Assembly: GCA_016937995.1 (NCBI GenBank)
Contig: JAFGVM010000037.1
Coordinates: 3,437-67,436 of the forward strand
DNA from: Candidatus Delongbacteria bacterium
GTDB taxonomy: Bacteria; UBA4055
Length of the DNA: 64,000 bases
Reading direction: 5' to 3'
The position numbers and the translations under genes are program-made. Under the pieces are notes generated by a model, which saw only the letters and a program-made list of their open reading frames with translations, was not told where the DNA came from and searched no databases. This document shows, in pieces, positions 3,930 through 8,497 of the stretch. Numbering within the stretch: position 1 is the first letter of the stretch; every line of letters begins with the position of its first letter.

Positions 3930-5006
3930 TTAGTTCTCCATTATTAATTTGATGATATTTCCTATATCATTTACTTTCTGCTTTGGTATTTCATCATATT
4001 TTTGCGCTTCATGAATATCAGTCTTTAAATTAAGGTCTTTCTGTGTCACATAATGAAATAATTTATTTTTTTTGTAATATCTTGCCAAATATTCCTGCTC
4101 TGTCTGACCCGGTGTTGGAATAAATAATGCTTTTTTGCCCATTGCTGCTATTTCCATTACTGTTGAGTATCCCGGTCTTGATATTATCATTCCGGCACCT
4201 TTTATCATCCCGGAAATTTTATTTCTTGGTAAATGTGAGTAGTATTCAATATCATTATTCGACTCATAACTGTTTATTTCTGTTTTACCGAGTATAACTG
4301 TTTTTTTACCTTCGATATGTTTTATCTGTTCACTTATTATTTTCTCAAAGTTTGTTCTCTGTGGTTCAGGACCTGATATCAAAACTAAATAATCTGAAGA
4401 TAAGCTTTCACAGTTCATTGTATCGGACAACAAACCGATATATTCAAGTTTTGATCTGTCGATCAGTGAAAATTCATGTGACAATTCTCCTGAAAAATTC
4501 GGTTCACCTTCAAGATCAGGGATAAGGATCTTCTTGAATTTACTAAAATAGAATTTATTGAAATACTCTGATAAAAATTCAAACCATTTTAATACTGCAG
4601 GCAGCTTAAATTTTAACTGATGTGTAATCAAATAAGAAGGAATCCCTTTTGAATATACTCCGTACCTGTTATCTGAAATTATTATATCAATATTTTTTTC
4701 TTTAACTAATCTGTCTGTGAATGAGTTTTCTTTCCATAGACCCAACAATATTTTTGGTAATTGAAAGGCTAAGGACAGGAATAAAAAATTTGCATTATTA
4801 ACATATTTTATAGAATAGTCAGGATAATCAATTACTTCTATCTCAGGAAATTCCGACTTCAATAACATTAATGATCTGCCTGTGGAAAGAATGACAACCT
4901 CATTGTTCTTTATCAATTCCCTTATTATCGGTAATGATCTTGTAGAGTGCCCAAGACCCCAATTTAATACAGCATATAGTATTTTTTTTCTCAAATCTTT
5001 CCCCAT
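3930..5006 (-). CDS. MurG-like glycosyltransferase (GT28-type, GT-B fold)
   Basis: The 358-residue protein starts with the acceptor-domain glycine motif 'NWGLGHSTRSLPIIREL' (residues about 15-31) and has the C-terminal donor-site region 'IISRPGYSTVMEIAAMGKK' followed by 'PTPGQTEQEYLA', as in GT28-family enzymes that use UDP-sugars. No signal peptide is seen, so it works on the inner face of the membrane. MurG itself is unlikely because the acceptor motif GGTGGH is replaced by LGHSTR. Co-transcription with the Omp85 gene hints at envelope glycan work, but the substrate cannot be named. Confidence 0.75.
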   Translation of the reverse strand: MGKDLRKKILYAVLNWGLGHSTRSLPIIRELIKNNEVVILSTGRSLMLLKSEFPEIEVIDYPDYSIKYVNNANFLFLSLAFQLPKILLGLWKENSFTDRLVKEKNIDIIISDNRYGVYSKGIPSYLITHQLKFKLPAVLKWFEFLSEYFNKFYFSKFKKILIPDLEGEPNFSGELSHEFSLIDRSKLEYIGLLSDTMNCESLSSDYLVLISGPEPQRTNFEKIISEQIKHIEGKKTVILGKTEINSYESNNDIEYYSHLPRNKISGMIKGAGMIISRPGYSTVMEIAAMGKKALFIPTPGQTEQEYLARYYKKNKLFHYVTQKDLNLKTDIHEAQKYDEIPKQKVNDIGNIIKLIMEN

Positions 5007-5082: not shown

Positions 5083-5156
<74 letters not shown>

Positions 5157-5161
5157 CAAAG

Positions 5162-5192
5162 AAAAAAAAGAGACATGAATGTCTCTTTTTTT
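5162..5192 (+). terminator. rho-independent terminator after tRNA-fMet
   Basis: AGAGACAT / ATGTCTCT stem (5169-5176 with 5179-5186), extended by an A-tract on the left and a T-tract on the right. The symmetry means it can also end transcription of the ygiQ-like gene coming from the other side. Confidence 0.85.
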
Positions 5193-5210: not shown

Positions 5211-6980
5211 TCACTTATTTTTCAGTATCTTATTTATATCTTTTTTTCTGTCAAGCTCATGAAGTATCCTGTGAACAGTTTTAAAATTTGAACTGCTCTT
5301 GTAATTATACAAAGCCACCATATTTTTCTTCTCACTGATCTTTTTGTTGACTTCTACTTCACCCCGTTCAAAAGGATCTTTACCAGTGAAATAATGGCAT
5401 GCTGAAATTGTCATTGGCAACGGCAGAAATGGAGTGATCTGATTAATTGAAAGATCAAATTTTATCAGTTCAAGAACATTATCTACAGTATCGTTATAAT
5501 TCTCTCCAGGATGTCCTGCGAGTACATTGACCTTTAGTTCATGCTTCTTAGAATACTCTCCCACCCGTTTTAAAAAGCTTTCAATGAACTCAACAGTTGC
5601 CTCATACTTCTGCTGTCCGGTCAAGTCATTGATCCTATCTTTTGAATTGAACAAATTCACTATACCGTAAGTATTAACTCTTTTCATAACATACTCTTTG
5701 AAAGCATCATTGTCGCTGAGTAATAAAGCTACATCCACATCAGATGCATAAAAATTATTTCTTATATTTTTCAGAATATCAACTTCCTTCGATATTTCGA
5801 TCATTGAATTAGTACCTTTTGAAAGGTTTGAACATACCGTCGGTATTATACATGATAGTCTGTCACATTTTTTACATTTTGATTCTGATCTTAAGCTTAT
5901 TCCAAAGTAATTTGATCTTATACCGTAAAAATTGTTTACCATCTTATTAAAAACCTTGGTATTAGTGAAATAAATTATGTTACGTAAAATTGAACTTTTG
6001 GATCTGGATGAAATAAATCTTCCCTGAGTAAATATGTCCTGTGTGTAAGATAAACTGTTAATAGTTCCCCTGTGCGTGGGTATCTGATCTTTCATCCTGT
6101 TATATGCGGGAATATCCTCTTTATATTTTGGATGAGGTTTTAAAGTAAAACTTGTACTGTAAATTGAGTCGATATCATTAGTTTCTAGAGGATATCCTGG
6201 TCTGTTGATTACAAGATAACGGTTCAGAACCCGTTGAACCAGTATTTCTGAATTATACGGGTTTTGATTTGAATGCAGTATTTTTTCGTGCTCAATGAAT
6301 ACGTCTTTATTTTTTTCAACTTCAAGAAATTCAGGAAGCATTCTGAATTTCTTTTTTTGAGGTGGTTCGTTAGAAATATATGCGATGCCGTCAAGAGAAT
6401 GTAAATTTTTAAATTCTTTAGAGATCTTTATCTGGTCTGCTAAACTAACAAGATTATATTCCATATTTCCGTACAATAAGACATCTGCTTTTGAGTCAAA
6501 AAGTACTGGTTTTCTGATCTTGTCAGACCAAAAATCGTAATGGGCAGCCATTCTGCCTGCAGCCTCAACTCCTCCTACCACTATTTTTGAGTTCTTGTAC
6601 ATTTCCTTGATCTTGTTACAGTATCTTATCAATGCTCTGTCAGGCCTATTTATCTTTTTATTCCCGGGTAAATACTGATCTGATGTCTTAAGTTTCATAT
6701 AAGGTGTATAATTGGATACCATTGAATCTTCTTCACCTGTTATTACCAGAAAAAACAATCTCGGTTTACCAAGTATTTTCCAATCCTCATCCTCATTAAC
6801 CCTGGGCATATCGAGAACAGCGACTTTATAACCGTTCTTATCTAGAAATTTCCCGCAGACCGCTACAGAAAAATTTGGATGATCAACATAAGCATCTCCT
6901 GTCACTATGATAATATCAGCCTGTTTCCATCCCAGCTTTTTAAATTCATTCGAATTATTCGGTAAAAATCCTTTTAACAT
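5211..6980 (-). CDS. YgiQ-like protein lacking the radical-SAM cysteine motif
   Basis: The 589-residue protein aligns along its whole length to the YgiQ family: 'IIIVTGDAYVDHPNFS' near the N-terminus, then RPDRALIRYCN, HYDFWSDKIRKP, SKADVLLYGNMEY, 'SRSKSSILRNI', 'CKKCDRLSCIIPTVC', LAGHPGENY and 'FLPLPMTISACHYFTGKDPFERGE'. In active YgiQ the HRG motif is followed by CX3CX2C that binds the [4Fe-4S]-SAM cluster. Here H303-R304-G305 is followed by Thr306, Leu310 and Thr313 at those three Cys positions. The family GG(I/V)EAS and PEHT motifs are also altered. The four-Cys CX2CX4CX5C knot is kept. The frame is fully open, so this is a diverged pseudoenzyme rather than a decaying gene. Confidence 0.8.
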   Translation of the reverse strand: MLKGFLPNNSNEFKKLGWKQADIIIVTGDAYVDHPNFSVAVCGKFLDKNGYKVAVLDMPRVNEDEDWKILGKPRLFFLVITGEEDSMVSNYTPYMKLKTSDQYLPGNKKINRPDRALIRYCNKIKEMYKNSKIVVGGVEAAGRMAAHYDFWSDKIRKPVLFDSKADVLLYGNMEYNLVSLADQIKISKEFKNLHSLDGIAYISNEPPQKKKFRMLPEFLEVEKNKDVFIEHEKILHSNQNPYNSEILVQRVLNRYLVINRPGYPLETNDIDSIYSTSFTLKPHPKYKEDIPAYNRMKDQIPTHRGTINSLSYTQDIFTQGRFISSRSKSSILRNIIYFTNTKVFNKMVNNFYGIRSNYFGISLRSESKCKKCDRLSCIIPTVCSNLSKGTNSMIEISKEVDILKNIRNNFYASDVDVALLLSDNDAFKEYVMKRVNTYGIVNLFNSKDRINDLTGQQKYEATVEFIESFLKRVGEYSKKHELKVNVLAGHPGENYNDTVDNVLELIKFDLSINQITPFLPLPMTISACHYFTGKDPFERGEVEVNKKISEKKNMVALYNYKSSSNFKTVHRILHELDRKKDINKILKNK

Positions 6981-7141: not shown

Positions 7142-8497
7142 TTGTTGAGATTAATATACAACGCATTTATCATACCTGTTCTTTACGTCTTTACTATTTT
7201 AGCAGCTGTCTTTAGTAAAAAAATTTACAAATCTCTGCAAGTGAGAGAAAATATCCTTAAAACTTTGACTAAGAAAAAGATAAGGCTTAATCCTTACAAA
7301 AGAACAGTACTATTTCATTGTTCTTCCATGGGTGAATACAAACAAATATTGCCAATAGTGAACAACCTAAGACAAAGTTCAGTTGATTATAATATTGTAC
7401 TTTCTCTGTTCTCGCCTTCGGTTTATGAAAATATCAACAGAGAAAACGAACTGTTTGATATTATTACCTACATCCCATTCGACTTTTTTATGCAGACCCG
7501 AAATTTCATTAATATAATCAACCCTCAGCTTGTTATAATTTCCAAGCATGATGTTTGGCCCAATTTCATATGGGAACTTGCACAAAAAGATATATCAATC
7601 TATCTTGTAAATGCTCTCTTTGCCGATGATACAAAAATGGACAAATGGTACATTAGATTCTTCTTCAGGTCAATATTTTCAAAATTATCCGGGATCATAA
7701 CCATCAATGAAAAGCACAGGCAAAGATTTTTAAATATTTTTCCATATCCCGAAAAACTTTATATCAGTGGAGATTCCAGGTTTGATACCGTTATCTTTGA
7801 AGCGGAGAACTCAGCCGGTATCGATCTGCTGAACAGGATTGAAACGAATGAACATGTTTTTGTAGCAGGAAGTACCTGGCCTGTTGCTGAAACCATCATA
7901 ATCGAAACATGGAATAAGATCAAAAATAAATATCCTGATGCTTTCCTGATAATAGTTCCCCATGAAGTTGATAACGAACACATTTATAAAATTGAAACCA
8001 TATGCCAGGAAAATAATCTTAAAAGCATTGTTTACACTGAATTGACAACAAGCGAAGATATACTGAAATACGACTGTATGATAGTGGATGTTATAGGGAT
8101 ATTATCAAAAGTTTACCGTTATGCGAATGTCGCTTATGTTGGTGGAGGTTTTTCTAAAAGTGGACTGCATTCAGTAATCGAACCGGCGGTTTTTGGAATT
8201 CCGGTTGTTTTCGGTCCTAATCTTGATAAATCACCTGAAGCTCAGGAAATGAAGTACATGGATTGCGGGAATGATTTCAGCAGTTCCAGTGAACTTTATA
8301 AATCAATTGATACTTTATGGTCGGACAGAGACCTTTATCGGAAAATATGTGAATTGAGTACTGAATTCATTAATAATCATAAAGGTGCGACAGATAGGAT
8401 CGTGGACGTTATAACAGGGAATATTACCAAAAATGAGCTGGAAAAAGTAAAATCACTGACTGAAGAGGAAATTGAAGAATTGAGCAGATTCCAATAA
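7142..8497 (+). CDS. waaA: 3-deoxy-D-manno-octulosonic acid (Kdo) transferase
   Basis: WaaA/KdtA transfers Kdo from CMP-Kdo to the lipid A precursor at the inner membrane. The 451-residue protein has an N-terminal membrane helix (about residues 4-24), the catalytic motif HCSSMGE with Glu65, 'GSTWPVAE', and the C-terminal CMP-Kdo region 'YVGGGFSKSGLHSVIEPAV' then 'GIPVVFGPN'. The start is TTG, chosen because GGGAG lies 7 bases upstream (7130-7134); another TTG follows directly. First gene of a six-gene operon. The C-terminal tail after residue 430 is an acidic extension. Its presence shows the organism makes lipopolysaccharide. Confidence 0.93.
   Translation: MLRLIYNAFIIPVLYVFTILAAVFSKKIYKSLQVRENILKTLTKKKIRLNPYKRTVLFHCSSMGEYKQILPIVNNLRQSSVDYNIVLSLFSPSVYENINRENELFDIITYIPFDFFMQTRNFINIINPQLVIISKHDVWPNFIWELAQKDISIYLVNALFADDTKMDKWYIRFFFRSIFSKLSGIITINEKHRQRFLNIFPYPEKLYISGDSRFDTVIFEAENSAGIDLLNRIETNEHVFVAGSTWPVAETIIIETWNKIKNKYPDAFLIIVPHEVDNEHIYKIETICQENNLKSIVYTELTTSEDILKYDCMIVDVIGILSKVYRYANVAYVGGGFSKSGLHSVIEPAVFGIPVVFGPNLDKSPEAQEMKYMDCGNDFSSSSELYKSIDTLWSDRDLYRKICELSTEFINNHKGATDRIVDVITGNITKNELEKVKSLTEEEIEELSRFQ

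Follow-up and report, generated by a model that had tools for sequence, protein, structure and literature searches.

The window analyzed in this study, a 64,000-nucleotide stretch of a Candidatus Delongbacteria contig, contained a gene encoding a YgiQ paralogue without the radical SAM cysteines (hereafter pYgiQ). Judged from its sequence and those of its relatives, this protein is probably an ancient, neofunctionalised duplicate of YgiQ that lost the ligands of its SAM-binding cluster and was retained in a non-radical role. The open-access literature searched yielded no description of a YgiQ lacking these cysteines. The gene and its main parts are located as follows.

5211..6980, minus strand: Cys-less YgiQ paralogue (pYgiQ), 589 aa, identified by an intact ORF, TIGR03904, dN/dS of relatives, and fold
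6090..6968, minus strand: Radical_SAM_N domain (PF08497), residues 5-297, Rossmann-like, identified by Pfam match, conservation, and structural match
6066-6074, minus strand: HRG, residues 303-305, kept
6042..6065, minus strand: former SAM-cluster loop, with Thr306/Leu310/Thr313 replacing three Cys, identified by sequence and alignment
5832..5876, minus strand: four-Cys knot C369-X2-C372-X4-C377-X5-C383, invariant within the clade

The reading frame, for which the first-pass annotation named no strand, lies on the minus strand; it consisted of 589 codons with no internal stops, as that annotation had stated, and the opposite (plus) strand was full of stops. The assignment to the YgiQ family in that annotation was also borne out: pYgiQ matched TIGR03904 nearly end to end (residues 5-554, E 6e-146) with 487 bits against a curated cut-off of 462 bits, and PF08497 with an E value of 1e-99, with a further match to DUF3362 at the cut-off. 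Five other clade members scanned against TIGR03904 scored 353-450 bits, all below the cut-off. In a Pfam scan of both proteins, PF04055 (Radical_SAM) was matched by the canonical paralogue of the same genome and had no match in pYgiQ. Compared with the YgiQ family (TIGR03904; PF08497, PF04055, and DUF3362), pYgiQ shares the length, domain order, N-domain residues, HRG, SRS, and Cys knot, but lacks CX3CX2C, a detectable PF04055 domain, and the motifs NSGIR and KIAPEHT. Under NCBIfam TIGR03904, the window protein passes for a 'YgiQ family radical SAM protein' despite the absent catalytic cysteines. The label 'radical SAM enzyme', which annotation pipelines would give it, is misleading.

The three cysteines of the SAM-binding [4Fe-4S] cluster are the defining feature of radical SAM enzymes. 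In pYgiQ, the loop reads HRG-T-INS-L-SY-T, and inspection of the codons confirmed the reported loss of CX3CX2C, with Thr306 (ACT), Leu310 (TTA), and Thr313 (ACA) at the cluster positions. The neighbouring motifs were altered as described earlier, GGIEAS being replaced by GGVEAA and PEHT being gone, and the second Cys knot was indeed present (C369, C372, C377, and C383). Without the cluster, the usual binding and cleavage of SAM would not be possible. The complete absence of cysteines from the three positions, in turn, held for the window copy and the two deepest copies only, and seven relatives keep Cys306. An assembly error, which the first-pass annotation had named as a possible refutation at 6063-6080, was ruled out because nine independent relatives likewise lack cysteines 2 and 3; that span covers the first cluster position, and the other two lie outside it, within 6042-6065.

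Among the 13 phylum genomes sampled, all of one family, the Cys-less copy was identified in 11 (ten full-length and one partial). The partial copy, in G003, is an N-terminal piece that ends before the motif and was assigned by score and neighbours. In the alignment, all 169 canonical homologues had C/C/C at the motif columns, compared with none of the ten full-length clade members. The canonical set combined the copies native to the phylum with those of 78 named genomes spread over many phyla, archaea included, and about 80 sequences from other families of the domain. A contig scan with an alignment as the query returned 80 loci; the 78 that entered the analysis were all canonical. A scan with a single protein as the query gave no match. 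Cys 2 and Cys 3 were absent from all ten full-length clade copies, and Cys 1 was present in the seven that read HRGCLND...SQ; the two deepest copies (G004 and G007) read QIGD. By parsimony, Cys310 and Cys313 would have been lost first, on the stem of the clade, and Cys306 later in two lineages.

The canonical YgiQ was found in 12 of the 13 genomes. Both relatives' sequences that the first-pass annotation had proposed to look for were present: a Cys-less clade with a single origin (support 100/100 in the tree), and an active-type paralogue in the same genome, which carries the motif HRGCFGGCTFC and is 37% identical to pYgiQ. The deepest split, separating G004 and G007 from the rest, was the same in the Cys-less clade and among the canonical copies, which places the duplication before the radiation of the phylum. 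The Cys-less and canonical groups of the phylum together formed one side of a branch, with support (87/93) that is not firm. True gene loss in G001 and G002 was not accepted, as both have contig gaps at the place of pYgiQ (the G002 contig begins within waaA, and in G001 neither waaA nor the glycosyltransferase gene is present). Similarly, G008 was not accepted as a genome with the Cys-less copy alone, as the gene normally found ahead of canonical ygiQ is followed there by just 37 bases before its contig ends.

The dN/dS values of Cys-less copies, calculated by the Nei-Gojobori method with our own script for pairs of relatives that do not include the window copy, were 0.094 (L003/L004) and 0.071 (L005/L007), compared with 0.090 for a canonical pair (L024/L026). 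The earlier proposal to measure dN/dS thereby yielded strong purifying selection among the relatives (0.07-0.09), equal to that on the canonical copy. A distant pair (L012/L013) gave 0.32 with dS above 1, which is unreliable. The lowest values in the same two close pairs, 0.048 and 0.035, came from the former radical SAM segment. Strong selection thus keeps a copy that has lost its SAM cysteines, indicating that it very likely has a different job, possibly linked to selenium. By contrast, a decaying duplicate heading towards a pseudogene is highly improbable. The window copy no longer has even Cys306, and its branch is long compared with those of its relatives, which would fit decay, but its 589 codons are intact, and intact copies occur in ten genomes spread throughout the phylum; the dN/dS among relatives is below 0.1, a terminator-like hairpin follows the gene, and contig gaps explain why G001 and G002 lack it. 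The pseudogene reading was rejected on the dN/dS values and the breadth of intact copies.

The changes were distributed unevenly along the protein. Counting positions conserved in at least 90% of canonical proteins, the N half (residues 1-280) keeps 36 of 49 such residues and the knot three of four, versus five of 17 in the HRG loop and five of 23 in the C-terminal barrel, where 14 were lost, along with the barrel motifs NSGIR and KIAPEHT. The decay is therefore not uniform: the catalytic half has been rewritten, and the N-terminal half, in our view the binding half, has been preserved. All four knot cysteines are invariant across the Cys-less clade. New invariants of the clade include Pro158, Asp416, Arg434, Gly474, and Glu475, with Asp416 corresponding to Arg (0.99) in canonical proteins.

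The retained fold proposed by the first-pass annotation agreed with structure prediction. AlphaFold with 76 sequences gave a pLDDT of 94.8 and a pTM of 0.94 from an alignment made up mostly of canonical proteins, and a pLDDT of 67 with the clade alone. The nearest solved structure to the model was MgmA (9ccb; Z 21.6, 377 residues, rmsd 4.1), followed by MtaB/MiaB/RimO (Z about 16-18) and the cobalamin enzymes OxsB, TsrM, and CysS (Z 14-17). The predicted structure is an intact radical SAM fold of the cobalamin or methylthiotransferase type with a partial TIM barrel. This fold is shared with MgmA, TsrM, OxsB, MiaB, and RimO, which, unlike pYgiQ, bind and use the SAM cluster and are 11-16% identical to it. 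We consider it rather unlikely that pYgiQ is a new SAM-free enzyme whose barrel has acquired a rebuilt active site, whose Cys knot holds a catalytic Fe-S cluster, or both. The new invariant polar residues of the barrel (Asp416, Arg434, and Glu475) and the position of the former cluster segment as the most constrained region would suit such an enzyme, but there is no sign of a reaction, and the invariant residues could equally serve binding.

Taken together, the single Cys-less clade, the canonical paralogue beside it, the purifying dN/dS, and the predicted intact fold support the pseudoenzyme reading of the first-pass annotation. The most probable course is that YgiQ was duplicated and the copy was fixed before the phylum diversified; the cysteines that ligate the SAM-binding [4Fe-4S] cluster would then have disappeared from the duplicate, which was retained as a non-radical protein. 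Most likely, pYgiQ serves in binding, as a scaffold, or in regulation, and not as a radical enzyme; its Cys knot would carry a Zn or Fe-S centre, and it would still bind whatever ligand or partner canonical YgiQ recognises through its N-terminal half. Metal or nucleotide binding through the Cys knot, as suggested by the first-pass annotation, is a hypothetical role for this invariant knot.

The following features surround the gene in the window.

5163..5192, minus strand: intrinsic-terminator-like hairpin of 13 pairs with a T run, just 3' of pYgiQ
5083..5157, plus strand: tRNA-Met (CAT), on the strand opposite to pYgiQ, a neighbour kept in seven relatives
7142..8497, plus strand: divergent waaA-type KDO transferase gene, a conserved neighbour
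3930..5006, minus strand: glycosyltransferase gene beyond the tRNA, a conserved neighbour

The strong hairpin suggests that pYgiQ is probably transcribed alone. In eight relatives, the pYgiQ block included divergent waaA and/or the glycosyltransferase gene and a gene for a POTRA outer-membrane protein, mostly with tRNA-Met between. A gene for a lipoprotein-like protein of about 360-420 aa lay directly upstream of the Cys-less ygiQ of relatives (L134 6650-7915, L135 6696-7919, L136 6717-7910, L137 6913-8001, and L140 985-2166), and the one protein scanned had no Pfam match; the 161 bases between pYgiQ and waaA in the window leave no room for this gene. In most phylum genomes, canonical ygiQ was preceded at 5-90 bases by a gene for a protein of about 1394 aa (L164 4107-8285 and L170 2791-6972).

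Since both copies co-occur in nearly all genomes and the kept N half could preserve a shared interface, pYgiQ might be a catalytically dead partner subunit that activates, stabilises, or restrains the cell's canonical YgiQ, which we regard as a tentative possibility. Precedents include the prozyme of trypanosome AdoMet decarboxylase, a catalytically dead paralogue in a proven heterodimer with the active one (PMC5201418), and Dph1-Dph2, paired radical-SAM-type paralogues in which a regulatory and not a catalytic function is ascribed to the Dph2 cluster (PMC11048331). Like pYgiQ, the prozyme is catalytically dead and coexists with an active paralogue, but its fold is unrelated and the pairing of pYgiQ is hypothetical; Dph2, unlike pYgiQ, keeps its cluster, has a non-classical fold, and has a proven partner. 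Against this role, pYgiQ and canonical ygiQ were never adjacent at the loci examined in the phylum. In addition, compared with G009, the canonical ygiQ of G005 (L173 7589-9200) has a 149-base deletion and a frameshift that span the Cys knot, which makes it a pseudogene or an assembly fault, while the Cys-less copy of that genome is intact. The missing canonical copy of G008 was not counted against a partner role because the contig ends where the gene is expected.

The best functional lead for pYgiQ, although a weak one, is its overlap with selD in the two deepest genomes, where the 3' end of its gene shares 20-38 nt with a selD gene that contains an in-frame UGA.

L138 6880-8000: selD overlapping Cys-less ygiQ
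L139 6890-8020: selD overlapping Cys-less ygiQ

This gene pair was the sole similarity between the stretches of about 17 kb from G004 and G007, suggesting weakly that pYgiQ works with selenophosphate synthesis, at least in these genera. Selenocysteine use is apparently phylum-wide, with selA in 13 and selD in 12 of the 13 genomes. These findings could be explained if pYgiQ were a selenium-linked factor that helps SelD by delivery, regulation, or as a scaffold, its Cys knot holding selenium or a metal. We view this role as doubtful, as the pairing in two of ten genomes is little evidence: in the genomes of the other eight pYgiQ loci, selD has a separate location, as a rule close to rpsT and a phosphoesterase gene, and no selD was found near YgiQ at 80 loci outside the phylum. 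The more specific proposal that a radical SAM fold without its cluster was converted to handling selenium or regulating SelD, and persisted phylum-wide beside an active YgiQ, is less likely still. The probabilities of these alternatives overlap with that of the neofunctionalised non-radical duplicate, because a binding protein could also partner YgiQ or SelD.

Active enzymes assisted by a dead paralogue have precedents, such as the prozyme; the kind of protein is therefore familiar, and the pYgiQ case is new. An ancient, selected, phylum-wide Cys-less paralogue indicates that the radical SAM fold is reusable for another purpose. E. coli ygiQ, a gene without known function, is co-expressed with translation genes (PMC6412132). 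For YgiQ, the Cys-less copy provides a natural comparison, in which residues common to both copies would point to binding and the lost ones to catalysis.
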